Shown piece by piece: positions 58 to 57,377 of a stretch of DNA of 64,000 nt. The stretch lies in the NCBI RefSeq assembly GCF_003115775.1, contig NZ_QEES01000005.1, positions 1 to 64,000 on the forward strand, given 5' to 3'. Source of the DNA: Cellulomonas sp. WB94 (lineage in GTDB: Bacteria; Actinomycetota; Actinomycetes; Actinomycetales; Cellulomonadaceae). The notes beneath the pieces are model-generated. The model saw only the letters and a program-made list of their open reading frames with translations, made no database searches and had not been told where the DNA came from. The position numbers and the translations under genes are program-made. Position 1 is the stretch's first letter; each line of letters opens with the position of its first letter.

Positions 58-1203
<1,146 letters not shown>

Positions 1204-4228: not shown

Positions 4229-6300
4229 GACCCCAGCATGCCAGTGTTCACGCCCACGCCCTCGGCGGCGGATGCCTCGTCGTCGGCACCGCCCGGCGCA
4301 GCGTCAGGTCGGGCGTCGGTCCGTAGCGCCGCCACGACCGTCGCAGCGGTCCGCGCGCCCATGCCCTGGACCGACGCGATCTCCTCGACCGACGCCAGGC
4401 GCAGCCGCTTGAGCGACCCGAAGTGCTTGAGCAGCGCGGCCGACCGCGCCGGCCCGAGCCCCGGCACCGCATCGAGGGCCGAGACCGTCATGCCCTTGCT
4501 GCGCCGCTTGCGGTGCGAGCTGATCGCGAACCGGTGGGCCTCGTCCCGCAGTCGCTGCAGCAGGTACAGCCCCTCCGAGCTGCGTTCGAGGATCACCGGG
4601 TAGTCCTCCCCCGGCAACCAGACCTCCTCGAGACGCTTCGCGAGCCCGCACAGGGCGACGTCGTCGATGCCGAGCTCCGCGAGGGCCGCCGCCGCCGCGG
4701 CCACCTGGGGCTGGCCGCCGTCCACCACGACGAGGTTCGGTGGGTAGGCGAACCTCGTCGGACGTCCGGTGCTCGGGTCGACCGGACCGGAGCGCAAGGG
4801 CGCGTCGTCGTCCGACCCGCCCTCGTCCAGATCGAGCTCGACGTCCCCCGAGGTCGCCCGCTCGGCGAGGTACCGGCGGAACCTGCGCGTGATGACCTCG
4901 TGCATCGCCTCGGTGTCGTCGCGTGCACCCTCGCCCTCGGCACCCCTGATGCTGAAGTGCCGGTACTCGCTCTTGCGGGCGAGGCCGTCCTCGAACACGA
5001 CCATCGATGCCGACTGGAACGTCCCCTGGTTGTGCGACACGTCGTAGCACTCGATCCGCAGCGGTGCGCTCGGCAGGTCGAGAGCCTCCTGGATCTCGCG
5101 CAGCGCCTGGCTCCTCGTGGTCAGGTCACCGGCCCGGCGGGTGCGATGCAGCGCGAGGGCGTGCTCGGCGTTGCGCCGCACCGTCTCGGCGAGCTCACGC
5201 TTCTCGCCACGCTGCGGCACGCGGATGTCGACGCGAGCGCCCCGCAGCCCGGTCAGCCAGGCCTGCACCTGGTCGACGTCGGTCGGCAGCACAGGGACGA
5301 GGACCTCGCGCGGGACCGCGCGGGCATCGCCGGTGACGCCGCGCTGCGTGGTGTCGGCCGACTGCTCGGCGCCGTAGACCTGCTCGAGCAGGCGCTCGAC
5401 GAGGTCGGCATCCGTGGCGTCCTCGACCTTCTCGACGACCCAGCCGCGCTGTCCCCGGATCCGCCCGTCCCGGACGTGGAACACCTGCACGGCGGCCTCG
5501 AGCTCATCGCCGACGAGCGCGAAGATGTCGGCGTCCGTTCCGTCCGCGAGCACCACCGCGTTCCGCTCCATCGCCCGTTCGAGCGCCGCGATGTCGTCGC
5601 GCAGCCGACCCGCCTGCTCGAAGTCGAGCTCGGCGGCGGCATCCCGCATGCGCTGGGTCAGGCGGCGCGTGAACTTCGCGGCGTCCCCCGCCATGAAGTC
5701 GCAGAAGTCCTGCGCCAGTGCGCGGTGGTCCTCGGGGGTGATGCGCCCGACGCACGGAGCGGAGCACTTGTCGATGTAGCCGAGCAGGCACGGGCGGCCC
5801 TGCTGGTGCGCCCGCTTGAACACGCCCGTCGAGCACGTCCGGACCGGGAAGACCCGGAGCAGGAGGTCGACGGTCTCGCGGATCGCCCAGGCGTGCGCGT
5901 ACGGGCCGAAGTACCGGGTGCCGGGACGCTTGGCGCCGCGCATGACCTGAACCCGTGGGAACTCGTCGGCGAGCGTGACCGCAAGGTAGGGGTAGGACTT
6001 GTCGTCGCGGTACTTGATGTTGAACCGCGGGTCGAACTCCTTGATCCAGGAGTACTCGAGCGCGAGCGCCTCGACCTCGGTGCTGACGACCGTCCACTGC
6101 ACCGAAGCCGCCGTGGTGACCATCGTCTGCGTCCGGGGGTGCAGGTTGGCGACGTCCTGGAAGTAGTTCGCGAGACGCGAGCGCAGGCTCTTCGCCTTGC
6201 CGACGTAGATGACGCGGCCGTGCTCGTCCCGGAAGCGGTAGACGCCCGGAGAGTCGGGGATCTCACCGGGTGCGGGGCGATAGGTCGCAGGATCGGCCAT
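4225..6300 (-). CDS. uvrC: UvrABC excinuclease subunit C
   Basis: UvrC makes both incisions in nucleotide excision repair after UvrA and UvrB have located the lesion. The 691-residue protein has an N-terminal GIY-YIG nuclease domain (SPGVYRF, then [14 protein letters not shown]), a cysteine-containing region, a UVR UvrB-binding segment near [16 protein letters not shown], a middle RNase H-like nuclease domain and C-terminal helix-hairpin-helix motifs ([19 protein letters not shown]). The ATG at 6300 gives MADPATYRP, which fits homologues; the ATG at 6339 would add 13 residues. It is the first gene of the run into rapZ. The acidic insert [10 protein letters not shown] in the middle is lineage-specific. 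Confidence 0.96.
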
Positions 6301-31324: not shown

Positions 31325-31569
31325 CAGGAACCCCCAGATGCTTGCTCGTAGGCGGCGTGGATGGCACGGTCAGACACGGAGGTCGGGTTGAGCCCGTCCT
31401 TCACCGCCTGCCGGAACTCCTGGTTGGTGCGGTCGAACCGCTTCTGGTCGGTGGCGGACGGCTGCTCGCCGCCCAGCCACATGGCGTTCACGCGCTTCGA
31501 CCGGACGCACTCACCGAACGACTCGTGGTCGCGGGTGCGGCAGCTGGACGTGCAGTGCTCGCCGGCCAT
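31324..31569 (-). CDS. Small cysteine-containing phage protein
   Basis: The 81-residue product has cysteines in CTSSCRTRDHESFGECVRSK near the N-terminus, which together with the histidine could bind zinc. Proteins with this pattern recur in actinobacteriophages next to lysis and tail genes; the function is unknown to me. The gene overlaps the endolysin stop codon and the adaptor start codon by TGATG, so all three are coupled. Confidence 0.7.
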   Translation of the reverse strand: MAGEHCTSSCRTRDHESFGECVRSKRVNAMWLGGEQPSATDQKRFDRTNQEFRQAVKDGLNPTSVSDRAIHAAYEQASGGS

Positions 31570-36812: not shown

Positions 36813-36931
36813 GTGGGTGTCTCCCTGTTCTGTGTTTTCGCAGGCCGCACTCACAACCAGGGGAGGAAGTGGGTGGCTCCTACTACCGGGGTCTCATACG
36901 CACGCTCGGGGCCGGTCGATCCGAGGTGGAG

Positions 36932-37002
36932 CGCCATCGCCAGGAGTCGAACCTGGGCCGAACGGGTTGGAGCCGTCCGTGCTGCCGTAACACTTCGATG
37001 AC
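36932..37002 (-). tRNA. tRNA-Trp (anticodon CCA)
   Basis: Read on the minus strand, the 71-nt cloverleaf has acceptor GTCATCG pairing with CGATGGC (one T-G pair), a 3-bp D stem (GTG/CAC), anticodon stem GACGG/CCGTT with loop CTCCAAC (anticodon CCA), a 4-nt variable loop, and T arm CCAGG-TTCGACT-CCTGG. The CCA end is not encoded. It sits in the late region between the 279-residue gene and scaffold. A phage Trp tRNA could supply tryptophan for the Trp-rich repeat protein, though this is speculation. Confidence 0.92.
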
Positions 37003-37067
37003 AGGCGGCGGTGGGTCGCCACCCTGTGTGCGGCACTTACCTGGCTGCCGCGACCTTTCCGTGATCG

Positions 37068-37140
37068 CTGACGTGGCAGGAGTCGAACCTGCAACGACCC
37101 GGGTAACAGCCGGGCGCTCTGCCAGTTGAGCTACACGCCA
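37068..37140 (-). tRNA. tRNA-Asn (anticodon GTT)
   Basis: Read on the minus strand, the 73-nt cloverleaf has acceptor TGGCGTG pairing with CACGTCA (one G-T pair), D stem GCTC/GAGC, anticodon stem CCCGG/CCGGG with loop CTGTTAC (anticodon GTT), variable loop TCGTT, and T arm GCAGG-TTCGACT-CCTGC. CCA is not encoded. It is 65 bp upstream of the Trp tRNA on the same strand, so the two are probably one transcript, starting after the hairpin at 37144-37171. Confidence 0.93.
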
Positions 37141-46212: not shown

Positions 46213-48039
46213 TCAGGCGGCCGGGATCATCCTCGAGACCCCGGCCGACATGTTCGGGTTCCCGGCACCGCTCAACCCCGCGAACAGGGTCTGCAGGTCG
46301 GGCCGGCCACCAGGACCGGCTGTTGCGGGTGCGCCGGCGACCGGCGCGAACATGTCGCCTGCACCAGGTGCGCCGCCGCCGGCCGCGGCCAGGGCCGGGT
46401 CACCGGGGGCACCCGGGATGGCACCCGGTGCGGGTGCCGGTGCGGGCGGCGGGAACACCTTCTCCAAGATGTCCTCGAACGACTGACCCTTCTGCAGACC
46501 GCGGGTCACCTGCACGATGCGAGACACGATCTCCGACGGGTCCTGGCCCTGCTGCACCAGCGCCGGCATCGACTGCCCGTACGCACTCATGGCCTGCGCC
46601 AGGGTGTCACGCATCTGCTCGAGCTGGATCTTCGACTCCTCCTCGGAGGGGTTGATGTCCGCGTCCGCGTTGCGCCGCACGTAGTCCTTCGACACGATGC
46701 CGCCACCCAGGTTCTGCAGCAGCCACACCAGGCCACGGTTCGGGTCCAAGCCCTTCACCCCGCCGTAGATGGCGTCCACCGTGTAGTCCCCGGCGATGTC
46801 CTTCGACGGCGTGTACGTGATCTGGTACTGGGCGCCGGACAGGCGGCCCCGGATCGACTTGACGGCCTCCGGCCAGAACTTCTCGTCCATCTCGAAGCAC
46901 AGAGCCAGCACCTGCTCGTCGTGCCGGGCGATCGTGCCCTGGCACATGGCGATCTGCTGCGAGTACCCGGCCATCAGCTCCTGCACGCCGCGGCCTGTGA
47001 CCACGGACGCGTCGATGGAACCACCCAGAGCCTCCGGGGCGATCGCCCCGTACTGCATCTCCTGCTTCAAGTGGTCGATGGACGCCCACACCTGCGCCGG
47101 CACGTCCAGGCGGACCCGGCCCACGCCGCCAGGGGTGGCGGTGCGGATGATCGCGTTCGCACCCACGGGGACGTCCACGACGTCGTTGGGCACCACGATG
47201 GGAGCCTCAACCGCCTCAGCGGCCGCCTCGACGGCCAGCATCTGCATGAAGTGCCGGGCGATCTGCACCCAGATCAGGTCGTCGAACGTGCCCTGCTGTT
47301 CCTCGTCCAGGTTCGGCTTCTTGGTGCACACGTACGGGCACCGGCCCAGCGGGTTGGCCATGTCCGTGAACACCAGGCCGCCCATGTCCGGGGCGTACAT
47401 GACGATCCGGTCCTTGTCGACGTACTTGACCACCCGGATGGTGGCGGCCACGTCTCGGCCGTTCACCCCGATGATCTTCTTGTTCAGCGTCGGCGCCAGG
47501 TGCGGGTACTCGACGGCCAGCTCCACGACGCGCCGGGTGAACTCGCGCACCACCTTCACGGTGCGCCCGCGGCGGTCCCACACGGGGTAGAACCCGATCG
47601 GGTTCTCGTAGATGACCGCAGGACCCTGCTCGTCCCAGTCCGGCTCCACCGACGCCACCATCAGGCCGTACGTGAAGAACTGGTCGCAGCTGGTCTGCCG
47701 CTGCAGCTCCACGCCGGACGCCTTGTAGTAGCCGTTGGCGATCTTCGTGCGCCGGTCCGCCCGGGTTCGGGCCGCGTCCGACGTCATGCTGGGGCTCGAG
47801 CACGTGATGGTGGGCAACGGCGACAGGGCTGCGGCCGCGTGCTGGGCAATCGTGTTGATCATGTTGGCGACGATGGGGCGCGGCCAGTCCTCGTTGAACG
47901 CGCCCGGGGCCACCTTGTCGAAGTCGCCCTTGCGTACCGCGCGCACCTCAGCCATGTGACGGTCCCGGTCGACGAACCCGGACTTGATGGCGTCCACGTG
48001 CTGCGACAGCTCGGGGTTGACGTAGGTCACCAGGTCCAC
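46213..48039 (-). CDS. Portal protein
   Basis: The 608-residue product is a portal protein: a ring through which DNA enters and leaves the head. The N-terminal part (RHMAEVRAVRKGDFDKVAPG, PRPIVANMINTIAQHAAAAL) and the stem-like middle region with IDHLKQEMQYGAIAPEALGG are characteristic; the C-terminal ~80 residues are Pro/Ala/Gly-rich and probably disordered. Its position directly after terminase is the standard order. It starts 3 bp after the terminase stop codon. Confidence 0.85.
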   Translation of the reverse strand: MDLVTYVNPELSQHVDAIKSGFVDRDRHMAEVRAVRKGDFDKVAPGAFNEDWPRPIVANMINTIAQHAAAALSPLPTITCSSPSMTSDAARTRADRRTKIANGYYKASGVELQRQTSCDQFFTYGLMVASVEPDWDEQGPAVIYENPIGFYPVWDRRGRTVKVVREFTRRVVELAVEYPHLAPTLNKKIIGVNGRDVAATIRVVKYVDKDRIVMYAPDMGGLVFTDMANPLGRCPYVCTKKPNLDEEQQGTFDDLIWVQIARHFMQMLAVEAAAEAVEAPIVVPNDVVDVPVGANAIIRTATPGGVGRVRLDVPAQVWASIDHLKQEMQYGAIAPEALGGSIDASVVTGRGVQELMAGYSQQIAMCQGTIARHDEQVLALCFEMDEKFWPEAVKSIRGRLSGAQYQITYTPSKDIAGDYTVDAIYGGVKGLDPNRGLVWLLQNLGGGIVSKDYVRRNADADINPSEEESKIQLEQMRDTLAQAMSAYGQSMPALVQQGQDPSEIVSRIVQVTRGLQKGQSFEDILEKVFPPPAPAPAPGAIPGAPGDPALAAAGGGAPGAGDMFAPVAGAPATAGPGGRPDLQTLFAGLSGAGNPNMSAGVSRMIPAA

Positions 48040-48042
48040 GGT

Positions 48043-49983
48043 TCACTCCTCCCGGGAGTCGTAGTCGGCCGCGGGCACCACCATCCGGCGTGCTGCGCGC
48101 GCCCTGGACGTGAACCGTGACCGCATGAACTGCTGCGTCTGACCGCTCTGGCCGAACCCGAGGATCCGGCGTGCGGCGATCTCGAAGAACCACAAGGCCA
48201 TCGGCCCGTCCTGCCGCAGATCCTTGCCGCGCACCCCCGGCCGCCACACCAACAGCTCGTCGATGAGCAGCTTGACGCCCTGCGAGTAGTCCGGGTCGGG
48301 CAGGGACAGCAGGTTGTCGCCGTTGTGCACCGACCGACCGGCACCCTCGTGGATGCGTCGGGCGCTGCCGAACACGGTCGCCACGGAGGCCACCCCGAAG
48401 TCGGGGTCGGTCTTGTTCTTGGACGTGTAGTGCGGCATGAGCCGCACCCCGCGCGCCGCCAGGTACGACGTGATCTCAGGGTCCTGGGTGAGGAACAGCT
48501 GGAACGCGTTCGACTCGATCACCCACTCCTGCACCCCGTACTCCTCCGTCACCCGCTTGATGGTCTCCCGGATGTACTGGGGGGTCGGGTGGGTCTGCAC
48601 CCAGGCGTTCTCGAGGTACTGCTTCTTGTCGGCCCGGTTCACGCTGCCCACCACCGTGAACGTGTCCCCGGCCATCGCCGGGTCCATGGTGGCGATCGTG
48701 TACATGCCCTCCTTGCCGTTGCGGGGGTGACCCCACGCCCCGGCGGTCAACGGGCCCGGCTTCCGCCGACGGTCCACCGCCCCTTGCACGCACACCGGCT
48801 GGAACGTGGCGTCGTCCGCCACCTGCTGCTGCTGGTACACCAGCGCCCACACGGCCGCCGGCTTCGCGTTGCGGATCTTCTCGCACCGCGCACCAGGGAA
48901 CATCTCGAACAGGCCCGTCGTCGGGTCCGGCTCCTGGCCGGGCTCGTACGCGGTGGACGACCACGGCCACAGGGTCACCCAGTCGTCCGCAGTGTCCCCG
49001 AACGCCAGCACCATCGGCTGCCGTAGGTACGACCACGGGGACCGACCCGACAGGTACCGGTCCTCAGCCCGCAGCTCCGAGTACAGGTCGGTGGACGCCA
49101 GGCGGGTGCCGATAACCAGGATCTTCCCGTCGTGAACCCGGGACTCCACCTCAGAGTCGATCCAGCGCAGCTGCTGCTCGTACTGGGCGGCGTTGTCCAA
49201 CGTCACCACGTCGTCCAGGATGATCAGGTCGGCGCGGTGCCCGTAGATGGTGGACCCCAGACCCAGGGCCTCCACGGTCGGGTCGTTCTGGTCCCGGTCG
49301 ATGCCGGCCACGTAGATCCGGTTCGCACCGAACGACCCACGGCCAGCCTCCGGCTTGAACCCGCCGTCCGGCGCGTACGTGGCCTGCAGCTTGGCGAACA
49401 GGTTCGAGGTGAGCCGCTGCTTGATCTGGTACAGGAACGAGGCCGCGAACTCCTGCTTCTTGGAGATGATCAGGATGCGGACGTTCGGGTTCATGCAGAT
49501 CCGGTACGTCGCGTAGTCGACGGTGATCGTCTGCGACTTGGAATGCCCAGGGGGGACGTTCACGATCAGCCGGTTCGGGTTCCGCTTGTCCCAGCTGCAC
49601 CCTTCAATGGGTGTCGGGTCGCGGCCTTCCAGAACGTCAACCCACTGCTGCTGGTGCTCGTATGTGTCGTACCCCAGGAACTCTTTCCGCCACGCTGCGA
49701 AATCCAGGGCGTACGCATCGGAGTCCAGCCCGCGGTTCTTCGCGGACGCCCGGTCCGCGCGCACCTTGTTCACCTGGCCGGCGAACTCTTTGTCGTTCCG
49801 CCGCCATTCCTCGTAGGTGCGGGTTGTGCGCCCCACCGCAGCCATGGCGTCCTCCACCAGGACCCCGTGTGCGATCGCGTCCACCACGCGCTTCTTCGCC
49901 TCACCGATCGACACCTGACCGGGCACCGGCACAGAGCACCCCCAAGGTGTTTCATGCGCCGCAGGGCAGACGCGCAGGTTCAT
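48043..49983 (-). CDS. Terminase large subunit with an N-terminal HTH-like extension
   Basis: The 646-residue protein packages DNA into the head. The ATPase part shows a Walker A variant VNVPPGHSKSQT near residue 140 and Walker B LIILDDVV; the nuclease part has TIATMDPAMAGDTFTVVG with metal-binding aspartates and WVIESNAFQLFL. The first ~90 residues (IGEAKKRVVDAIAHGVLVED, then AAVGRTTRTYEEWR) look like a helix-turn-helix resembling a small-terminase DNA-binding domain, and no separate small terminase is seen. The ATG at 49983 lacks a good ribosome site, so a downstream GTG start is possible. Confidence 0.9.
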   Translation of the reverse strand: MNLRVCPAAHETPWGCSVPVPGQVSIGEAKKRVVDAIAHGVLVEDAMAAVGRTTRTYEEWRRNDKEFAGQVNKVRADRASAKNRGLDSDAYALDFAAWRKEFLGYDTYEHQQQWVDVLEGRDPTPIEGCSWDKRNPNRLIVNVPPGHSKSQTITVDYATYRICMNPNVRILIISKKQEFAASFLYQIKQRLTSNLFAKLQATYAPDGGFKPEAGRGSFGANRIYVAGIDRDQNDPTVEALGLGSTIYGHRADLIILDDVVTLDNAAQYEQQLRWIDSEVESRVHDGKILVIGTRLASTDLYSELRAEDRYLSGRSPWSYLRQPMVLAFGDTADDWVTLWPWSSTAYEPGQEPDPTTGLFEMFPGARCEKIRNAKPAAVWALVYQQQQVADDATFQPVCVQGAVDRRRKPGPLTAGAWGHPRNGKEGMYTIATMDPAMAGDTFTVVGSVNRADKKQYLENAWVQTHPTPQYIRETIKRVTEEYGVQEWVIESNAFQLFLTQDPEITSYLAARGVRLMPHYTSKNKTDPDFGVASVATVFGSARRIHEGAGRSVHNGDNLLSLPDPDYSQGVKLLIDELLVWRPGVRGKDLRQDGPMALWFFEIAARRILGFGQSGQTQQFMRSRFTSRARAARRMVVPAADYDSREE

Positions 49984-50858: not shown

Positions 50859-50913
50859 TCACCCGTTCGGGTGATGTGCGCGTGTTGTGCACGCGTCCCG
50901 CTGCGCCCATACT
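50859..50913 (+). promoter_or_regulatory. Putative rightward early promoter with palindromic operator
   Basis: TTGTGC (50885-50890) and CATACT (50908-50913) are spaced by 17 bp. Just upstream is a perfect palindrome TCACCCG-TT-CGGGTGA (50859-50874), and another, TGCAACC-AGCA-GGTTGCA, is at 50779-50796. These would be good repressor-binding sites. The start point would be about 50920, some 30 bp before the first gene. Confidence 0.55.
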
Positions 50914-50950
50914 GGGGGAACAACAGGGACTAGCGGAACGGGTGAGCATC

Positions 50951-51097
50951 ATGGCTGCGCGCACGTACATCGTCGAATTCGCTGACGGCTACAACATTCC
51001 GGTCACTGCGCTGAGCGCCCGCGACGCGCGAAACCTGGCGATCGAACGCGTCGAGACCGACCCCGAAGACCACGGCTCTATCGCGTACGTCGACTAG
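50951..51097 (+). CDS. First gene of the early operon, 48-residue unknown protein
   Basis: The product MAARTYIVEFADGYNIPVTAL... continues with a helical ARDARNLAIERVETD segment. No domain is recognised. The GTG nine bases upstream (50942) is an alternative start; ACGGGTGAG would be the ribosome site for the ATG. A small protein with a beta-hairpin and one helix is possible. It is the first rightward gene after the putative promoter and is followed nine bases later by a tRNA-like element. Confidence 0.65.
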   Translation: MAARTYIVEFADGYNIPVTALSARDARNLAIERVETDPEDHGSIAYVD

Positions 51098-51106
51098 GCA
51101 CAAACG

Positions 51107-51151
51107 GCCCGCCATGGTGGCGGTTCGGCGGTTCGATTCCGCCGGCGGGCA
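51107..51151 (+). ncRNA. tRNA-like minihelix 1
   Basis: GCCCGCC (51107-51113) pairs perfectly with GGCGGGC (51144-51150). Directly inside lies a T-arm: GGCGG (51127-51131), loop TTCGATT (51132-51138), CCGCC (51139-51143), with no gap before the acceptor strand. The acceptor and T-arm give the same 7+5 bp stack as a real tRNA; the D and anticodon arms are replaced by a 13-nt linker, ATGGTGGCGGTTC. A competing hairpin CCGCC/GGCGG is possible. It lies between the first and second gene of the operon. Confidence 0.65.
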
Positions 51152-51180
51152 CTGGGAAGTCAACGTCAAGGGGAGGAATC

Positions 51181-51531
51181 ATGTTCCGGAACAGCATGCA
51201 CGAGACGTCTGGTGGTCACCTGTCGGTGCACCTGACACCGGTGCCGCTCGAGCTGACCACGGGTGAGCCGTTGCCGGGTGAGGACCCGTGCGACGCGCGG
51301 TCGTGGGTGCAGCGCTTGTCGGACAGGATCGCCCCGGTGCAGTCGGGTGACCTGTCGCGGCTGGACCTGGCGGACGGTCGGTCGGACCTGTCGGGCGCGG
51401 TGGACGCGGTGCGTGCTGACATGGCGGAGGACGGGGCGACGGACCCGGGCCCGTACCTGGACCCGATGGCGCTTGCCGACTTCGGCGTGACCCGTGCGCA
51501 GGTTCTGGCGGCGTTCGGTCGACGCGACTAG
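51181..51531 (+). CDS. Unknown early protein, 116 residues
   Basis: The ATG follows GGGGAGGAATC, an excellent ribosome site. The product has an N-terminal beta-like stretch (HLSVHLTPVPLELTTGEPLP), then helical acidic parts (LSDRIAPVQSGDLSRLDLAD) and ends GVTRAQVLAAFGRRD. No cysteine, metal or nucleotide motif is seen. It is acidic and could be a host-takeover protein; nothing in the sequence proves it. Confidence 0.65.
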   Translation: MFRNSMHETSGGHLSVHLTPVPLELTTGEPLPGEDPCDARSWVQRLSDRIAPVQSGDLSRLDLADGRSDLSGAVDAVRADMAEDGATDPGPYLDPMALADFGVTRAQVLAAFGRRD

Positions 51532-51539
51532 GCACGGCA

Positions 51540-51573
51540 GCCCGTGCGTGCGCTCACGGATCGGCGCACGGGC
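51540..51573 (+). ncRNA. Intergenic hairpin resembling a minihelix without T-loop
   Basis: GCCCGTGCG (51540-51548) pairs perfectly with CGCACGGGC (51565-51573). An alternative pairing gives GCCCG/CGGGC stacked on TGCGC/GCGCA with a 10-nt loop, the size of the minihelices elsewhere in this operon, but the loop TCACGGATCG is not T-loop-like. A second hairpin, CGCGACG/CGTCGCG, follows at 51580-51596. Confidence 0.45.
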
Positions 51574-51624
51574 ACGAGACGCGACGCAACGTCGCGCGAG
51601 GCAGAGCACGAGAGGGGAGCTGGC

Positions 51625-51942
51625 ATGTCGATTCTGACGCGTGACGCGTTGACGGTTGCCGAGGCGCAGCGGATCCGCGCGGAGCTGGTGGCAAGGTTCA
51701 GCCACGCGCCGCGGGTGGCGCACGCGACGCAGCTCGAGGCGGACCCGGCCGGGTGGTCGTTCCGGCTCGAGCACGCTTCCGACCTGTGGGACGTGGTGCA
51801 GATCCCCCGCGCGACCGCGCCCGCATTCGGGCTGCGTGACCGTGCGTACGGTCCCACGTTCGGCCCGGACGATCGGTGCACAGTGTGCGCCGAACACATC
51901 GCGGACCCTCACGCGCCTTTCTGCGTGTGGTCGGATCGCTGA
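51625..51942 (+). CDS. Unknown early protein with C-terminal CxxC-type motif
   Basis: The 105-residue product has a helical N-terminal half (VAEAQRIRAELVARFSHAPR) and a C-terminal segment CTVCAEHIADPHAPFC, whose cysteines and histidines could bind one zinc. The ATG follows GAGGGGAGCTGGC, a good ribosome site. No family is recognised. It is followed by a promoter-like sequence, so the ArdA gene may also be transcribed separately. Confidence 0.65.
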   Translation: MSILTRDALTVAEAQRIRAELVARFSHAPRVAHATQLEADPAGWSFRLEHASDLWDVVQIPRATAPAFGLRDRAYGPTFGPDDRCTVCAEHIADPHAPFCVWSDR

Positions 51943-51947
51943 CAATG

Positions 51948-51976
51948 TTGTAGCGGCGTGCTGAACGCGGTACGCT
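51948..51976 (+). promoter_or_regulatory. Putative ardA promoter overlapping a TTGTAGCG half-site
   Basis: TTGTAG (51948-51953) and TACGCT (51971-51976) are spaced by 17 bp, 34 bp before the ArdA start codon. The half-site TTGTAGCG (51948-51955) overlaps the -35 box, so the proposed operator would block this promoter. No partner half-site is seen here. Confidence 0.5.
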
Positions 51977-52009
51977 GACAGTATCGACGGAACGGAAGGC
52001 GGAAACACA

Positions 52010-52567
52010 ATGGCTGACAACGACGCACCTACCGTCTGGGTCGGGTGCCTGGGCTGCTACAACGGTGGCGCACTGGTGGGCGCGTGGTTCGACGCGACCG
52101 ACGCCCCGCAGGACATGGCGGAATTCGCGGCCGCCGGAGTGAAGGTGCCCGGGGCGCACGCGCTCGAGGCTCACGAGGAGTTGTGGTGCTTCGACTTCGA
52201 GGACACATCCGGCCTGTTCACGGGTGAGTGCTCCCCCGCGGAAGCGCGGCGGCTGGGCGAACTGCACGCCGCGATCGTCGCGGACGCCTACCCCGTGAGT
52301 GCCGTGGTCGCGTGGCACGACTGGTGCGGCGCGGACCTCGAGGAGTGGGACAAGCCGACGCGTGAAGCGTTCGAGGACGCGTACGCCGGCGAGTGGCACT
52401 CCGAGGAGGAGTACGCGCAGGACTTGGCGGAGTCCATCGGCGCCATCTCATCTGACGCGACGTGGCCGTGTACGTGCATCGACTGGGAGCAAGCGGCGCG
52501 TGAGCTGTTCACGGACTACGTGTCTGTTCAGTCACCCTTCGGCGTCTACGTCTTCCGCAACGTGTAG
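52010..52567 (+). CDS. ardA: ArdA-family antirestriction protein
   Basis: ArdA proteins mimic DNA and inhibit type I restriction enzymes. The 185-residue product matches: WVGCLGCYNGGALVGAWFDA at the start, the middle DLEEWDKPTREAFEDAYAGE, and EEYAQDLAES with CIDWEQAARELFTDY and YVFRNV at the end. It is strongly acidic, as expected of a DNA mimic. The ATG follows CGGAAGGCGGAAACACA. It is early in the operon, where an incoming phage genome would need it, and its stop codon overlaps a dyad motif. Confidence 0.92.
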   Translation: MADNDAPTVWVGCLGCYNGGALVGAWFDATDAPQDMAEFAAAGVKVPGAHALEAHEELWCFDFEDTSGLFTGECSPAEARRLGELHAAIVADAYPVSAVVAWHDWCGADLEEWDKPTREAFEDAYAGEWHSEEEYAQDLAESIGAISSDATWPCTCIDWEQAARELFTDYVSVQSPFGVYVFRNV

Positions 52568-52585
52568 CAGCGTCGCGCGCTGCAA
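52565..52585. promoter_or_regulatory. Dyad element at the ardA stop codon
   Basis: TAGCAGCG (52565-52572) and CGCTGCAA (52578-52585) form an inverted repeat with a 5-bp spacer and one mismatch; the first three bases are the ardA stop codon. It resembles the dyads at 26308 and 55004, which have 6-bp spacers. As RNA it would be a 7-bp hairpin. Confidence 0.5.
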
Positions 52586-52589
52586 CATC

Positions 52590-52635
52590 GCCCCGAATCT
52601 AGCGGCACTGGGGAGTGCGAGCCTCCCCCGGGGCA
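52590..52635 (+). ncRNA. tRNA-like minihelix 3
   Basis: GCCCCG (52590-52595) pairs with CGGGGC (52629-52634), and directly inside GGGGAG (52610-52615), loop TGCGAGC (52616-52622), CTCCCC (52623-52628). The 6+6 bp stack has the 12-bp length of a tRNA acceptor plus T-arm. The loop differs from TTCRANY only at its second base. The linker is 14 nt. A GC hairpin, CGGGCC/GGCCCG, follows at 52640-52660. Confidence 0.55.
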
Positions 52636-52678
52636 CGAACGGGCCGGAACCGCTGGCCCGCTGTTCGGAAGGATCGCC

Positions 52679-53887
52679 ATGACTGCCACACTCGAGGCGC
52701 CCGCCGTCACCACGACGGCCCGGGTGTCCCTGCTGGACCTGGACCGCGCGGCAAAGCTGCTGCGCGTCACCCTCCCGTCTCGCCCGATCGCGCGGGAGAC
52801 GGGCGGCATCCGTGTGACCGGCCGCGCCGGCGTGGTGTCGCTCGAGTCGTTCGACTACGCGACGGGCGGCCGGGTGCTGTCGCGCATGGACGGCGACGAC
52901 TTCGGGCCCGTCGTGCTCGAGGGTCGCGCACTGCTGGACGCGTTCAAGGCGGCCGGTCTGGGTGTGCGCGCGGTGGCGCGCGTCACCGCGGACGTCACCC
53001 TGACCGTGCCTGCGGACGGCCCGGTGCAGGTGCACGGCCCGAACGGTGCGCAGCCGACCGTGGCGCGCATGCACATCGACCCTGACAACCTGCCGGACCT
53101 GCCCGCCGTGGTGGGCCCGTCCGTGACGGTGGACGGCGACAAGCTGACCCGGGCGGCCGGTGCGGTGGCGGCCGGGGCGTCGCGCGACGTGACGCTGCCC
53201 CTCCTGTCCGGTGCGCGTGTCACGTTCACCGCGGACACGGTGCAGATGGTCACCACCGACCGCTACCGGTTGCACGAGGCGACCGTGCCGGCGTCCCCCA
53301 TGTCGACGGCCGACCTGCCGGCGGACGTGCTGCTGCCGGCGGTCCTGCTGCACAAGCTGGTCAAGCTGGTGCCGGCCGGGGAGGACGTCACCGTCGTCGT
53401 GTCGGTGCGGGACACCCGGGACGTGTGGGCCCGCCTGTCGTGGCCGGGTGCGGACGTCCTGCTGCTGTCGATCGACGGGGACTACCCGGCGGTGGATCGT
53501 CTGTGGCCGGACAACCCGCCGCACACCGCGGTGGTGGACCGGGCGGCACTGCTGGCCGCCGTGAAGACGGTGCAGCCGTTCTGCGAGCGCAACATGCCGG
53601 TGCGTCTCGACTTCGGCATCGACTGCCTGACGGTGCACAACGGGGACACGGAGGCGCCCATGTCGGCGGCACCCGTCCAGGCCGGTGTGCAGGTGGACGG
53701 CATGGACGGCGTGGCGTTCAACCCGTCGTTCCTGGTGGACGCGCTCGAGGCCCTGGACGGGCCCACGGTCACCCTGCACATGTCCGACCAGGTGCGTCAG
53801 GGTGCCGCGTTCGTCCTCAAGCCGGTCGAGTTCACGGACGGCGGGCCGGCCCGCGTGCTGCTGGTGCCCATCCGGTTCGGCGGCTAG
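52679..53887 (+). CDS. Phage DNA polymerase sliding clamp (DnaN-like)
   Basis: The 402-residue protein has the beta-clamp fold in three domains. TDRYRLHEATVPASP in the middle domain matches the family YRL segment, DYPAVDRLWPDNPP a second clamp motif, and the last domain ends FVLKPVEFTDGGPARVLLVPIRFGG. Clamps encircle DNA and tether the replicative polymerase; this one would act in phage replication or recruit the host polymerase. The ATG follows CGGAAGGATCGCC. No phage DNA polymerase is visible in the window. It has an N-terminal extension rich in Ala/Thr. Confidence 0.88.
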   Translation: MTATLEAPAVTTTARVSLLDLDRAAKLLRVTLPSRPIARETGGIRVTGRAGVVSLESFDYATGGRVLSRMDGDDFGPVVLEGRALLDAFKAAGLGVRAVARVTADVTLTVPADGPVQVHGPNGAQPTVARMHIDPDNLPDLPAVVGPSVTVDGDKLTRAAGAVAAGASRDVTLPLLSGARVTFTADTVQMVTTDRYRLHEATVPASPMSTADLPADVLLPAVLLHKLVKLVPAGEDVTVVVSVRDTRDVWARLSWPGADVLLLSIDGDYPAVDRLWPDNPPHTAVVDRAALLAAVKTVQPFCERNMPVRLDFGIDCLTVHNGDTEAPMSAAPVQAGVQVDGMDGVAFNPSFLVDALEALDGPTVTLHMSDQVRQGAAFVLKPVEFTDGGPARVLLVPIRFGG

Positions 53888-53902
53888 GCCGCGCAAGCGG
53901 TG

Positions 53903-53951
53903 GCCGGGTGACGGTATGGCCGTCCCGGGGGTCCGAGTCCCCCACCCGGCG
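53903..53951 (+). ncRNA. tRNA-like minihelix 2, the best-formed copy
   Basis: GCCGGGT (53903-53909) pairs perfectly with ACCCGGC (53944-53950). The T-arm is GGGGG (53927-53931), loop TCCGAGT (53932-53938), CCCCC (53939-53943), joined directly to the acceptor strand, then a discriminator-like G at 53951. Between acceptor and T-arm is one hairpin, GACGG-TATGG-CCGTC (53910-53924). It looks like a tRNA in which the D and anticodon arms are replaced by a single 5-bp arm. It lies between the sliding clamp gene and the 337-residue gene. Confidence 0.7.
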
Positions 53952-53986
53952 CTCGAGCATCACCCAACCTGACGAAAGGCAGACCG

Positions 53987-55000
53987 ATGAGCATCACAAC
54001 CGAGTCAGCACCGGCGGTCGACATCACCCAGCTGGAGCCGCTTCCGTGGCTGCACCTGGTGGACACCACGTGCACACCCTTGACGCTCGGGGCCGAGTTC
54101 CTGGTGACCGGCGCGTACTCGCGGACCGACGACATCGGCCGAGTGATGACGCTCGAGTCGACCGATGGGGTTAGTGCGCACCCGCTGATGGCGCAGCCCG
54201 ACCCGGACCGGGTTCAGTACTTCTGCTACACGGGCGTGGCGATCAATCCGCCGGTGTCGCGCGGTGACGTGATCGGGATCGTCCGCGACACCCCGCTCGA
54301 CTGGCACTACCCGTCCCGCCGCGGTGACGTCCTGACGGTCGACTCTGGCAGTGGCCGACTGGGGTCGCCCGGCGGGGTGATCGGCTACAACTCGATGTCC
54401 GATCACCACGTGTGGGCGGGGGCCTACGTGAAGCTGACCGGCCGTCCCGGGACTCCGGCGGGGCCCGCCGACGCGCCGCACATCGCGTACACGGACACCA
54501 CCACGATCCCGTACGACGTCATGGTGACGGCGATCCGCAAGGCGGCCACGGTGCACGGTCTCGAGCGGGACGGCGAGCGGTTCATCGTCGCACTCGGCGC
54601 CCGGTACCAGCTCGGCATGGACGCCGACGCCGACCTGCAGTACATCGTCCGCGACCACTGGGGCGACCTGATCGCCCGGTTCGTGTACCAGGCGGACGCG
54701 GCCGCGTTCCTGGACGGCAAGACGTCCTCCACCCACCGCACCTACACGGTGGCCGACCTGCGCGACCGGGTGACCGGGGCCGCTGCGTTCTTCGGGTGGT
54801 GCGGGGAGGCGCTGCGTGAGTTCAACAGCGCGTTCGGGCCCACGGCCGGCACCTGGCGGGTGGAGGTGGACCCGGACGAGGACGACGAGGTGGACGAGAG
54901 CCTGCCGTTCGACGTGCGCGACCCCGACGGGCAGCTGGTGGCGTCGTTCCACACGCGTGCGGAGGCGGACGCGTACGTGGACGTGCGCAAGTCGGCGTAG
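53987..55000 (+). CDS. Unknown early protein, 337 residues
   Basis: The ATG follows GAAAGGCAGACCG. The N-terminal third is beta-rich with many aromatic residues (PLPWLHLVDTTC, VQYFCYTGVAI); a middle part is helical (DVMVTAIRKAATVHGLERDG), and the end is acidic (VDPDEDDEVDESLPFDVRDP), followed by a C-terminal domain with SFHTRAEADAYVDVRKS. I recognise no family. It is the largest unknown in the operon and its stop codon is three bases before the dyad at 55004. Confidence 0.65.
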   Translation: MSITTESAPAVDITQLEPLPWLHLVDTTCTPLTLGAEFLVTGAYSRTDDIGRVMTLESTDGVSAHPLMAQPDPDRVQYFCYTGVAINPPVSRGDVIGIVRDTPLDWHYPSRRGDVLTVDSGSGRLGSPGGVIGYNSMSDHHVWAGAYVKLTGRPGTPAGPADAPHIAYTDTTTIPYDVMVTAIRKAATVHGLERDGERFIVALGARYQLGMDADADLQYIVRDHWGDLIARFVYQADAAAFLDGKTSSTHRTYTVADLRDRVTGAAAFFGWCGEALREFNSAFGPTAGTWRVEVDPDEDDEVDESLPFDVRDPDGQLVASFHTRAEADAYVDVRKSA

Positions 55001-55003
55001 GTG

Positions 55004-55025
55004 TTGCAGCGTCACGCCGCTACGA
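55004..55025. promoter_or_regulatory. Dyad element after the 337-residue gene
   Basis: TTGCAGCG (55004-55011), a 6-bp spacer and CGCTACGA (55018-55025) form the same geometry as 26308-26329. It starts three bases after the stop codon. The first half-site is in the context GTGTTGCAGCGTCA, close to GTGTGTCAGCGTCA at 56954, another candidate half-site. Confidence 0.55.
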
Positions 55026-55035
55026 CGTGACGGGC

Positions 55036-55076
55036 GCCCGGCTGGCAGGCATCCACGTTCGAGCCGTGGACGGGCA
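55036..55076 (+). ncRNA. tRNA-like minihelix 4
   Basis: GCCCG (55036-55040) pairs with CGGGC (55071-55075), directly stacked on TCCACG (55052-55057), loop TTCGAGC (55058-55064), CGTGGA (55065-55070). The loop is a perfect T-loop consensus. The stack is 5+6 bp, one pair short of a tRNA. The linker is 11 nt. A GCCCC/GGGGC hairpin follows at about 55091-55110, before the ribosome site of the next gene. Confidence 0.6.
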
Positions 55077-55121
55077 CGAGGAGCCCCGCGCGAGGTGGGG
55101 CCCGACGGGAAGGAGCTGACC

Positions 55122-55376
55122 ATGCTGCGCCTGACGCGTCGCCGGCCGGATCCGGCACCCCTCCCCTGGTCCCCCCATGAGCAGGACCGTGTGGTGATCA
55201 AGGGTGCCGCGGCCGTGCACACGGTGGTCTGGGTGGATGGGGACGCCGTGCAGTGCGTCAACCTGGATCACCCGGACACGCGGACAACCGTCCCGGCGTC
55301 CTGGCTGCGCCCGGTTGACCCGGAGCTGCGCCCACGCCCCGCGAACCGCACCCGTCGAGGGTGGTGGTCCAGGTGA
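55122..55376 (+). CDS. Unknown early protein, 84 residues
   Basis: The ATG at 55122 follows GGGAAGGAGCTGACC. The product is basic at both ends (MLRLTRRRPDP, RPRPANRTRRGWWSR), with a beta-rich middle (VVWVDGDAVQCVNLDHPDTR). It could be an RNA- or DNA-binding protein with a small beta domain. The stop codon overlaps the next gene's GTG. Confidence 0.6.
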   Translation: MLRLTRRRPDPAPLPWSPHEQDRVVIKGAAAVHTVVWVDGDAVQCVNLDHPDTRTTVPASWLRPVDPELRPRPANRTRRGWWSR

Positions 55377-55561
55377 GGCACAAGAACGGTCCGGGCCCCA
55401 AGTCGGTGGCCGAGTTGTCGTACGAGTTCGCCGTGACCATGGCGGAGATCCGCGACTACCTGGACGACCTGGCGGTACGTGTGGGCCGCTGGAACGTGTA
55501 CACGATCGACGAACGTGTGCGCCCGGAGGTCATCGACGGGCTGCGGAGGCGAGTCGCATGA
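55373..55561 (+). CDS. Small HTH-like protein, 62 residues
   Basis: The GTG at 55373 overlaps the upstream stop codon (GTGA). The product has a probable helix-turn-helix (SVAELSYEFAVTMAEIRDYL), then a beta-like segment (DDLAVRVGRWNVYTID). It may bind DNA; a role in regulation or excision is possible but not shown. The stop codon overlaps the next ATG (ATGA). Confidence 0.6.
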   Translation: MRHKNGPGPKSVAELSYEFAVTMAEIRDYLDDLAVRVGRWNVYTIDERVRPEVIDGLRRRVA

Positions 55562-55947
55562 GCGACAACCGGAAGCGTCGTACGTTGCCCCGCTGCACCG
55601 TGTACAGGGTGGAGAACGAGTACGGGGTGGGCCCGTACAAGGAGAGCGTCAGGCTGCGGGGCACGCGGATCAACGACGCCCACGCGGACGACGCACACCC
55701 GGGCCCGTACACGGACGGGATCGGGTGGGACTTCGAGGCGTCGTACGTGTGCGGGCTGCCGACCCTGCCAGCACTGCGCACCTGGTTCGCCGGGTGGGGT
55801 GCGGCCCTGGACCACCGCGGGTTCCGTGTGGTCGCGTACCGGGTGCCCAAGTGCCGGGTACTGCATGGCAAAGTCCAGGTGATGTTCGACCGCGGTAGGT
55901 GTAAGCCGTTGTGGTCGAAGTCTCCGTCGGAAGCTCGGGTGTGGTGA
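55558..55947 (+). CDS. Unknown early protein, 129 residues
   Basis: The ATG overlaps the upstream stop codon. The product has a basic start (MSDNRKRRTLPRC), a beta-rich middle (VYRVENEYGVGPYKESVRLR), and an Asp/His-rich stretch (RINDAHADDAHPGPYTDG) that might bind metal. The C-terminal half has VYGV-like aromatic strands and ends KSPSEARVW. I recognise no family. Confidence 0.6.
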   Translation: MSDNRKRRTLPRCTVYRVENEYGVGPYKESVRLRGTRINDAHADDAHPGPYTDGIGWDFEASYVCGLPTLPALRTWFAGWGAALDHRGFRVVAYRVPKCRVLHGKVQVMFDRGRCKPLWSKSPSEARVW

Positions 55948-56114
55948 CCGTGACCGCCGCGTTCATTGCCTTGTCCCTCATGTTCGGCGGGATGGCCGGC
56001 CTGGTCACGTACGGCCTGCTCACCATCCTGCTGGCCCGGTGGCTGCCGGCGCCCCCTCCGAAGCGCGAGGTGGACGACGAGACGGTCATCCTGCTGATCG
56101 GCGGTGGCCGGTGA
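55944..56114 (+). CDS. Small single-span membrane protein, 56 residues
   Basis: The GTG at 55944 overlaps the upstream stop codon. The product is dominated by one hydrophobic segment of over 30 residues (FIALSLMFGGMAGLVTYGLL and on into the TILLARWLP end), followed by a charged tail (PKREVDDETVILLIGGGR). It would insert in the membrane. It could be a superinfection or lysis factor. Confidence 0.55.
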   Translation: MTVTAAFIALSLMFGGMAGLVTYGLLTILLARWLPAPPPKREVDDETVILLIGGGR

Positions 56115-56473
56115 ACATCACCCCGCGCAAGAGCGAGACGGACCCGATCGTGCAGCTGCTCGAGTCGGACGCCTACCCGGACGCGCAGAAGCTGGCGGAG
56201 GCCATCGTCAAGACGGCGTTCGACGCGCTGCTGCGCCGCGAGTGGTGGCTGACCGTGGTGGACGTGGACGGGCTGACGATCGCGTACGGCCTGTCCCCCA
56301 CCGAACGTCAAGCGGAGCTGGCAGAGCTGGGCGGCGGGTTCCGTCGCATGGTCCTGCCCGTGGCATCCGCCCAGGGCACCCTGCAGCGTCAGGCAACGCT
56401 CGAGGCGCCCCCCAAGAGTTCCAACACCGGGCCCGAACCGCGGGCCCGCAAACCGAGAGGATCAGCACGATGA
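56111..56473 (+). CDS. Unknown early protein, 120 residues
   Basis: The GTG overlaps the preceding stop codon. The product is mostly helical at first (DPIVQLLESDAYPDAQKLAEA, then LLRREWWLTVVDVDG) and ends in a basic proline-rich tail that overlaps a perfect hairpin in the DNA, CGGGCCCG-AACCG-CGGGCCCG (about 56431-56451). No domain is recognised. Confidence 0.6.
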   Translation: MNITPRKSETDPIVQLLESDAYPDAQKLAEAIVKTAFDALLRREWWLTVVDVDGLTIAYGLSPTERQAELAELGGGFRRMVLPVASAQGTLQRQATLEAPPKSSNTGPEPRARKPRGSAR

Positions 56474-56865
56474 GCACTGACAGCAGCACCGACCGCACCA
56501 ACGTGTACGCGTTCATCAACGGCGGCACCCCGCTCGAGAACCTGTGGGTGGCGATCGCGGAGGACGGCGACGTCCTGGCCGTCGGGTACGTCCTGGACCC
56601 GGAGCTGGCCGCCATCTTCGGTGCCGGCGAAGCGACGGACGGGCCGACCCACGTGGGGCCGACCGGGCCGGGCCGCGACCGGTACATCGAGAAGTTCGGG
56701 GACGACCCGGAGTCCGCCATCAACTACGTGGTGGTGCCGGAGGGCAAGCTGCCGCCGGAGGTCGTGCTCGAGCGCAACCACGCGCAGACCGACCCGGAGC
56801 TGGTGCAGATGGCCGACGTGTTCAACGCGACGGTCGTCGGCCAGGACGACTCGCAGGCGGCCTGA
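56470..56865 (+). CDS. Unknown early protein, 131 residues
   Basis: The ATG overlaps the upstream stop codon (ATGA). The product has a beta-rich core with YAFINGGTPLENLWVAIA and YVLDPELAAIFGAGEATDGP, and a long acidic C-terminal part (DPELVQMADVFNATVVGQDD). Its stop codon lies in a small hairpin (GGCCTG-AGAAA-CAGGCC, 56859-56875). The function is unknown. Confidence 0.6.
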   Translation: MSTDSSTDRTNVYAFINGGTPLENLWVAIAEDGDVLAVGYVLDPELAAIFGAGEATDGPTHVGPTGPGRDRYIEKFGDDPESAINYVVVPEGKLPPEVVLERNHAQTDPELVQMADVFNATVVGQDDSQAA

Positions 56866-56880
56866 GAAACAGGCCCCAAG

Positions 56881-56964
56881 GCTGACACACCGGGCCCGGC
56901 ATGTTGTCCCGCCACGCGGCAACGTCGCAAGCGAGACGGGCATGTTTGGGCCTGGTGTGTCAGC
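56881..56964 (+). ncRNA. Intergenic element with a 17-bp stem
   Basis: GCTGACACACCGGGCCC (56881-56897) and GGGCCTGGTGTGTCAGC (56948-56964) pair over 17 bp with a single G-U, closing a 50-nt loop. The loop contains the 15-bp repeat GGCAACGTCGCAAGC (56918-56932), also present at 26341-26355. The 3' arm ends in TGTCAGCGTCAC, similar to the dyad half-site at 55004. It lies between a stop codon and the next ribosome site. It may be a structured RNA, a terminator or a replication origin element. Confidence 0.6.
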
Positions 56965-56994
56965 GTCACACCGCATGACACAGGAGGAAGGAAC

Positions 56995-57165
56995 ATGAGA
57001 GGCATCAAGTGGGCGGTGTGGCGCTGCTGCGTCGGGCATCACGGCCCGAACACCCGCACCGCGGCATGGCACGCATCGACGACGGCCACGTCGTCCGTTC
57101 GGACGTTCGACACGTGGCGGGAGGCGTACGACTACGCGCACGGCCGGGCTGGCGGTGCGCTGTGA
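56995..57165 (+). CDS. Unknown small protein, 56 residues
   Basis: The ATG follows AGGAGGAAGGAAC, the strongest ribosome site in this part of the operon. The product starts MRGIKWAVWRCCVGHHGPN with paired cysteines and histidines, then Thr/Ala-rich sequence. The C-terminal TWREAYDYAHG is a helix typical of small phage proteins. It is too small for a firm call. The stop codon overlaps the next GTG. Confidence 0.6.
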   Translation: MRGIKWAVWRCCVGHHGPNTRTAAWHASTTATSSVRTFDTWREAYDYAHGRAGGAL

Positions 57166-57377
57166 GCCTCATCACCAACCGCTCCGTGCTGGCCCGGTAC
57201 GTGGTGTGCCAGTGCGGGAAACGCGGCTACGAACAGAAGCAGTTCGCCAAGGCCGCCCGGCAGTCGCTGGGCGGGCACGGCCTGCACGTGTACCGGTGCC
57301 CGGTCTCCGGCGCCTGGCACGTGGGGCACCAGCGGACCGGCATCACCCGGGACTACTACCGGCAACGGGCGGCATGA
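57162..57377 (+). CDS. Small cysteine-rich phage protein, 71 residues
   Basis: The GTG at 57162 overlaps the upstream stop codon. The product has VVCQCGKRGYEQKQFAKA and, later, YRCPVSGAWHVGH, so three cysteines with two histidines could bind zinc. Proteins of this kind (cysteine pair, helix, CP..GWH-like end) are frequent in phage genomes next to HNH genes; the role is unknown. The stop codon overlaps the HNH start. Confidence 0.7.
   Translation: MSLITNRSVLARYVVCQCGKRGYEQKQFAKAARQSLGGHGLHVYRCPVSGAWHVGHQRTGITRDYYRQRAA

Follow-up and report, generated by a model that had tools for sequence, protein, structure and literature searches.

The gaps of a phage early operon in Cellulomonas sp. WB94 contain four transfer RNA (tRNA)-like minihelices, E1 to E4, all on the + strand of a 64,000-nucleotide stretch of contig NZ_QEES01000005.1 (positions 1 to 64,000; hereafter the window). 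These elements are members of a large family that lies between co-directional genes in bacterial phages and haloarchaeal tailed viruses. Judging from covariation, each apparently consists of a tRNA's acceptor, T-arm and elbow, with the anticodon arm absent, and we propose that they are cut sites for host tRNA-processing enzymes on polycistronic viral mRNA.

Stems, T-loop and elbow of the minihelices

The elements were located with a descriptor consisting of a loop TNC(A/G)ANY of 7 nucleotides (nt), a T stem of 5-6 base pairs (bp), an acceptor stem of 5-7 bp and a spacer of 6-22 nt, with few G-T pairs and with the 3' strands of the two stems abutting without a gap. E1 to E4 are its sole matches in the 64 kb, both strands included, and all four are intergenic:

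E1, 51107-51150, + strand: acceptor 51107-51113/51144-51150 (7 bp); spacer 51114-51126 (13 nt) with GG at 51116-51117; T stem 51127-51131/51139-51143; loop TTCGATT at 51132-51138; then AC at 51151-51152; 9 nt past the stop of gene 50951-51097, with the start at 51181 30 nt on.
E2, 52590-52634, + strand: acceptor 52590-52595/52629-52634 (6 bp); spacer 52596-52609 (14 nt) with AG at 52601-52602, of the A18/G55 type described below; T stem 52610-52615/52623-52628; loop TGCGAGC at 52616-52622; then AC.
E3, 53903-53950, + strand: acceptor 53903-53909/53944-53950 (7 bp); spacer 53910-53926 (17 nt) with a possible small D-arm-like hairpin at 53910-53924 (GACGG-TATGG-CCGTC); T stem 53927-53931/53939-53943; loop TCCGAGT at 53932-53938; then GC.
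E4, 55036-55075, + strand: acceptor 55036-55040/55071-55075 (5 bp); spacer 55041-55051 (11 nt) with GG at 55044-55045; T stem 55052-55057/55065-55070 (6 bp); loop TTCGAGC at 55058-55064; then AC.

Against these four matches, Markov-2 simulations of the whole window gave a mean of 0.2 and a maximum of 2 (100 simulations), and simulations of the + strand of 50900-57200 a mean of 0.01 and a maximum of 1 (1000 simulations). An earlier reading of the window from its letters alone (the sequence-only reading) had described the same object in these gaps; its stem pairs, 7-nt loops, gap-free junction, and helix and spacer lengths were all verified, the stack being 12 bp in E1, E2 and E3 and 11 bp in E4. 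Its borders delimit the same elements but end one base too late, the base after the helix having been included. In the minimum-free-energy fold of the isolated strand, E3 and E4 form the T-arm listed above and E1 and E2 adopt another inner pairing, so that the fold of the four elements rests on comparison rather than on energy. Neither ARAGORN nor Rfam called any of them.

The pairing was examined in the commonest geometry (5 bp + 11 nt + 6 bp), of which 49 non-redundant elements align without gaps. Their covariation score was 0.906, compared with 0.188 for shuffled and at most 0.172 for slid alignments. Double-sided changes occur in 10 of the 11 pairs, a number that 64 of 500 shuffles reach as well. 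Because these elements were picked for pairing, the percentage of pairing among them is built in, and the fair test is the pattern GGCANACNNCNNGGTTCGANTCCNNG, which leaves the acceptor and three T-stem pairs free and has 214 distinct matches in 118 loci. All five acceptor pairs were formed in 203 of these, as opposed to 32 when the 3' strands were re-dealt, and the 203 fully paired matches carry 35 different acceptor sequences; the three free T-stem pairs were all formed in 208. At least 3 of the 11 acceptor misses (L179, L195 and L284) show shifted or longer pairing. Covariation in homologues, which had been set beforehand as a check, was strong. E4 has the commonest geometry and scores 52.3 bits (E 7.5e-11) in R1, a covariance model built from 49 elements, many of them from contigs with unknown host. 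R1 finds E4 and misses E1 to E3, so this one model leaves some geometries uncovered.

The spacer had been taken as 11-17 nt of filler. The length stands, but within the spacer there is a motif resembling a D-loop, and it covaries with the T-loop. The bases at positions 18 and 55 of tRNA, here spacer base 9 and loop base 24, are G/T in 43 of the 49 elements, A/G in 6 and mixed in none. The seed pattern fixes G18 and T55 in 23 of the 49, and the count was therefore redone without those, giving 20 G/T, 6 A/G and no mixed case (Fisher, 4e-6); spacer base 10 (G19) is G in all 26 of these non-seed elements. Among 74 distinct, partly redundant non-seed elements of the same geometry there are 65 G/T, 8 A/G and 1 G/C, the A/G cases stemming from eight loci. 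In other geometries, with the seeds removed, AGC is found in the spacer with 14 of 15 TGC loops, compared with 6 of 53 TTC loops. Both types occur in the window: E2 has TAGCGG with a TGC loop, the combination of AGC spacer and TGC loop seen in 20 of 21 TGC elements, and E1, E3 and E4 have GG. T54, C56 and A58 are set by the descriptor and provide no evidence.

We take the 18-55 pair and the adjoining G19-C56 to be the D-loop/T-loop contacts of the tRNA elbow; the spacer TGGCAGACA resembles a tRNA D-loop with the 3' half of the D stem. Because the spacer motif covaries with the T-loop, the spacer appears to be a D-loop remnant that contacts T-loop bases 55-56, and the element would be a half-tRNA with its elbow, more than a plain hairpin. 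The elbow covariation strengthens the tRNA-minihelix reading made from the sequence. A D stem of at least 3 bp can be drawn in 25 of 38 long-spacer elements, with 17.2 in shuffled spacers, a weak excess; a small D-arm hairpin may survive where the spacer is longer (E3, for example), but the 11-nt class has no room for one. In common with tRNA (RF00005; positions in tRNA numbering), the elements have the acceptor/T-arm stack, the T-loop TTCRANY, G53-C61, G1-C72, A73 and a D-loop G18-G19 facing U55-C56. They differ from it in having no anticodon arm, mostly no D stem and a length of 40-48 nt, and ARAGORN and RF00005 called none in the loci tested. The anticodon arm is missing, as had been claimed: the scans allow only 6-22 nt between acceptor and T stem, and the commonest class has 11.

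Spread of the family and position between genes

The element recurs well outside the window. When one 61-base element served as BLAST query, 371 matches turned up in 162 phage records, whose hosts are Streptomyces (112), Mycobacterium (24), Halorubrum (10), Gordonia (10), Haloarcula (5) and Arthrobacter (1); among the 60 phage-record matches listed, 56 have no annotated feature beneath them. Scanning viral contigs with a pattern picked out 102 stretches, 45 of which contain an element by the descriptor, some with 2-4 matches, and the rest the pattern only. With a 26-position pattern, named genomes gave 31 stretches, 24 of them with an element, Bacteroidota included. The descriptor scan covered 2.45 Mb (the window and the loci from L039 on, out of 288 sequences) and yielded 463 matches, 347 of them distinct, of which a few are surely due to chance. 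In the 64 loci with at least 3 matches there are 349 matches in 0.66 Mb, whereas one Markov-2 simulation of these loci gave 2, a comparison with random sequence set beforehand and made in loci chosen for at least three matches. All matches lie on one strand in 60 of these 64 loci; the highest count is 13, in the 14.5 kb of L179.

Relatives of the terminase were found at 20 loci in viral contigs. The nearest (L039, 84% identical) has an element with stems unlike those of the window (GCCCGT/ACGGGC and GCGCGG/CCGCGC around TTCGATC, then AC), 6 nt past the end of the open reading frame (ORF) 416-787 (- strand) and before ORF 83-331. It stands in a gap of the early region, upstream of the divergent terminase, which is the arrangement of the window. 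The haloviruses HCTV-7 and HF2 have two elements each in the stretches examined, those of HF2 at 2906-2944 and 4375-4414. The HCTV-7 pair scores 40.1 and 30.8 bits and the HF2 pair 36.6 and 24.7 bits in R1, from which both pairs had been excluded. Bacteroidota elements score 44.7-57.6 bits, one R1 seed element being identical to one of them. Those of L308, L310, L315 and L302 lie near genes with matches to PHROG families for transposase, DNA transposition protein, ATPase and proteins of unknown function, and because of these transposition genes the loci can be read as Mu-like prophages. A Gemmatimonadota genome bin (L305) has four descriptor matches in 2 kb, of which R1 scores two as strong and one as weak, with a phage-exonuclease-like gene nearby. 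Among genomes of the same family R1 found an element in 2 of 61, the window's own included, and in the phylum in 1 of 198, the window's own, which is a weak negative since 33 candidates per genome were scored. No Rfam family matched an element in the loci searched.

The position of the elements was counted in eight annotated loci (Joe, Lika, Predator, Aleemily, Send513, Pitbull, HCTV-7 and the window). There, 34 of 40 descriptor matches lie in gaps between same-strand genes and in the same orientation, five overlap a called gene and one is at a locus edge. One overlap, at 21166 inside a tail gene of Joe, looks like chance. Two lie near a called start, in Predator gp49 (L163 4169-4627) and HCTV-7 gp111 (L169 41449-41817), where the start calls may be wrong; a fourth lies inside the 48-amino-acid gene gp39 of Pitbull (L167 1914-2060), whose call may also be wrong, and the last, in Predator, overlaps a gene end by 12 nt. 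In 33 elements, which leave out an atypical Predator match at 18507, the distance from the upstream stop has a median of 11 nt and is at most 18 nt in 24, and that to the next start has a median of 43 nt and a range of 29-58 nt.

In the early operon of Joe, an element is present in 8 of 9 gaps of at least 75 nt and in none of 15 shorter gaps; this count includes an element found by R1 only (47635-47675) and drops the weak opposite-strand gene gp78, the keeping of which gives 7 of 8. In Lika, 7 of 10 long gaps and none of 15 shorter ones are occupied; of the three long gaps left empty, one contains a variant with a loop, TGCAAGG, outside the descriptor. The corresponding numbers in Predator are 6 of 13 and 0 of 21, with 4208, 5385 and 18507 left out.

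Proposed processing of viral mRNA and alternative explanations

The data show the sequence family, the pairing, the elbow covariation, the sense orientation and the position in gaps; that RNase P and RNase Z recognize the elements, where they would cut and what purpose this would serve are inferences. On balance we lean towards the view that they are RNase P cut sites, perhaps with RNase Z cutting as well, that punctuate polycistronic viral mRNA. The element would act in cis on the polycistronic transcript, folding like a tRNA's upper half, in which acceptor and T-arm stack coaxially over 11-12 bp and the T-loop is docked onto the D-loop remnant (G18-U55 or A18-G55, plus G19-C56). Host RNase P would cut before base 1, and RNase Z or 3' exonucleases probably after A73/C74. 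The operon mRNA would thereby be split into messages that are translated and decay separately, and a mini-tRNA would be released. We favour cutting by RNase P, together with RNase Z, because the elements are in sense orientation, lie in gaps and keep a steady distance from the next start downstream.

The ends of the elements bear on this proposal. In the 49 elements, base 73 is A in 39 and a purine (R) in 48, C74 is present in 47 and C75 in 1, G1-C72 closes the helix in 42, and the base before G1 is A in 39; the non-pairing of base -1 with base 73 is uninformative, as the scan ends at the first mismatch, and was not used. The sequence-only reading is supported in part: its structure holds, and the cutting or end protection of mRNA that it suggested is conjectural; the D-loop motif, the spread beyond actinophages and the A73-C74 signature had escaped it. 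According to passages of PMC4919913, the stack of T-arm and acceptor is bound by RNase P, which takes the elbow as its point of measurement and pairs with the 3' end of the tRNA; RNase Z clamps on to the elbow, and CCA-adding enzymes measure this stack too. Parts of PMC11143913 describe a contact of RCCA with RNase P RNA, and the conservation of A73-C74 and G1-C72 seems to fit that contact. The elements thus appear to keep most features used by RNase P, RNase Z and CCA-adding enzymes, and to have lost everything needed for decoding.

Processing of viral transcripts is also suggested by other observations. A type II hammerhead ribozyme (RF02276, 53 bits) at L122 6754-6819 (- strand) shares a long gap with a minihelix by rough ORF calls, and excerpts of PMC3088659 place a hammerhead of HF1/HF2 13 nt before an early gene. 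In the portion of PMC8707807 at hand, the authors invoke processing in HF2, where transcripts of 35 kb by reverse-transcription polymerase chain reaction (RT-PCR) stand against Northern bands of 0.5-9 kb; those 35 kb transcripts belong to the late module, away from the elements.

Several points weigh against RNase P cutting. By an excerpt of the published primer extension, HF2 has a 5' end at T-4384, which its authors call a transcription start. If the record and the paper share their numbering, T-4384 is the tenth base of the HF2 element 4375-4414. This is 9 nt away from the predicted cut, at a place where cleavage would be expected of neither RNase P nor RNase Z. The 11-bp stack of the commonest class, one short of tRNA, might shift or weaken RNase P cutting, and, with C75 in 1 of 49, the full RCCA contact is missing. 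Passages of PMC4919913 indicate that the D-loop appears dispensable for RNase P, so RNase P alone cannot explain the kept D-loop contact, and we weight the RNase P reading slightly lower for this reason. If the cut falls just past the stop, the upstream mRNA would end in only some 10 nt of unprotected sequence. Finally, phiC31, also a Streptomyces phage, was examined for its early stem-loops and has no minihelix.

The same closeness to the upstream stop (at most 18 nt in 24 of 33) fits a 3'-end cap as well as punctuation, and so also counts against our proposal. Such a cap, which we consider unlikely, would arise by a cut behind A73/C74: the element would stay on the upstream mRNA, its tRNA-like end blocking 3' exonucleases, and a CCA-adding enzyme may complete ...A-C to ACCA. 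The conserved A73-C74 could be extended by that enzyme, and excerpts of PMC4919913 have CCA enzymes and RNase Z measuring the same stack. However, the cut would have to be one-sided, and G1 and the preceding A (39 of 49) are also conserved, though the helix end alone could explain this.

Control of transcription, through antitermination, pausing, terminator RNA or a promoter-linked motif, seems improbable. The HF2 5' end T-4384 inside an element and the location in early operons speak for it. On the other hand, no GC hairpin with a U-tract was found in 50900-57300 of the window, in both Joe and Lika a single operon has elements in most of its long gaps, and a conserved elbow contact is unexpected in a terminator. 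We regard as quite improbable that the copies act in trans as decoys, sequestering a host factor that binds tRNA or a defence nuclease that cuts it. The upper half of tRNA is indeed faithfully kept, with up to 13 descriptor matches in one 14.5-kb locus (L179), but one array would suffice for a decoy, which does not need a copy in each gap at steady distances from stop and start.

An element acting as DNA, such as a mobile repeat, an attachment site or a recombination hot spot at module boundaries, is very improbable. A short sequence repeated at gene borders suggests one, and the T-arm half of a tRNA gene often serves as an attachment core, but copies within a genome differ in both stems with the pairing kept, and the 203 fully paired matches of the family have 35 distinct acceptor strands. 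Moreover, 34 of 40 annotated matches are oriented along transcription, and in 60 of 64 loci only one strand carries matches. A tRNA-type attachment site in particular is made less likely by the presence of several divergent copies in each genome. Decayed tRNA genes or chance are practically negligible, despite true tRNA genes elsewhere in the window, given 349 matches against 2 simulated, compensated stems and the same reduced form in unrelated viruses.

RNase P punctuation can be extended to a wider reading, in which bacterial and archaeal viruses share an operon punctuation code whose anticodon-less half-tRNAs, about one per long gap, hand mRNA junctions to host tRNA maturation. We see this joint reading as close to an even chance. 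If it is true, the principle of mitochondrial tRNA punctuation is realized with purpose-made tRNA halves, which form a new class of self-standing tRNA-elbow RNAs. A widespread RNA family is in any case added to well-collected phages, namely R4-like Streptomyces phages, Predator-type mycobacteriophages and HF2-type haloviruses. If the elements are cut as predicted, phages with few promoters could set the level of each early gene, natural minimal substrates of RNase P and RNase Z exist in two domains of life, and a natural swap of G18-U55 to A18-G55 in the tRNA elbow is documented.

tRNA-like structures and the action of RNase P on mRNAs are already known kinds. In mitochondria, tRNAs lie between genes and their excision frees the mRNAs; those are functional tRNAs, whereas here dedicated half-tRNAs without the decoding part stand in viral operons. 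The tRNA-like domain of transfer-messenger RNA (tmRNA) and the mascRNA of MALAT1 have a reduced D arm and tRNA-like end processing, each within one large RNA, unlike the free-standing, multi-copy elements of 40-48 nt. The early stem-loop terminators of the Streptomyces phage phiC31 also recur between genes but are plain hairpins with no T-loop or elbow. By titles in the reference list of PMC11143913, RNase P acts on the C4 RNA of P1/P7, the tRNA-like structure of turnip yellow mosaic virus (TYMV) and polycistronic operon mRNAs; as proposed here, RNase P there acts on tRNA-like RNA, in one case of phage origin, but these are single cases of other architectures, in contrast to a family repeated in many operon gaps. 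The intergenic viral hammerheads in the excerpts of PMC3088659 share the gap location and the expected mRNA cut but are self-cleaving and of unrelated fold. The stoperators of R4-like Streptomyces phages, as far as the sections of PMC10276819 describe them, are likewise repeated between genes but are repressor-binding DNA sites without T-loop or elbow. With limited terms, and with preprints and most subscription journals outside its scope, a full-text literature search found no description of such elements.

Neighbouring genes and other features of the window

The window belongs to a 3.87-Mb genome. An IMG/VR viral contig of 47,495 bases encodes three of the window's phage proteins with 100% identity. 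A nucleotide search of its early region among phages found nothing. The genes around the elements are:

50951-51097, + strand: early gene of 48 amino acids, upstream of E1; no PHROG match.
51181-51531, + strand: gene downstream of E1; no PHROG match.
52010-52567, + strand: ArdA-like antirestriction gene, upstream of E2 (phrog_2059, E 1.1e-19).
52679-53887, + strand: phage DNA polymerase sliding clamp, between E2 and E3 (phrog_947, E 1.4e-43).
53987-55000, + strand: gene of unknown function, between E3 and E4.

The clamp (52679-53887) has 34% identity to the clamp of the host chromosome, and both it and the ArdA-like gene lie inside the element-bearing operon. Homologues of the clamp occur in Arthrobacter phages and in host chromosomes, which is uninformative for the elements.

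Two hairpins were seen between early genes. The gap 51532-51624 contains, at 51540-51573 (+ strand), a strong hairpin GCCCGTGCG...CGCACGGGC followed by AC; its outer sequence and tail are as in the minihelices and it has no T-loop, so that it is perhaps a degenerate or different punctuation element. A long hairpin lies at 56881-56964 (+ strand) in the gap 56866-56994, which folds at -64.1 kcal/mol and has no Rfam match.

The only ARAGORN and Rfam calls in the window are the ordinary tRNA genes Trp (cca) and Asn (gtt) at 36931-37140 (- strand). Outside it, an unannotated tRNA-like sequence with an odd central part lies in the early region of phiC31 (L161, about 31424-31509, + strand, in the gap 31410-31550). 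Phage Joe (L160) has, at 48107-48163 (- strand), a larger tRNA-like object without RNA annotation, with a 30-nt spacer, a GGTTCAA T-loop and possibly an anticodon-like arm.

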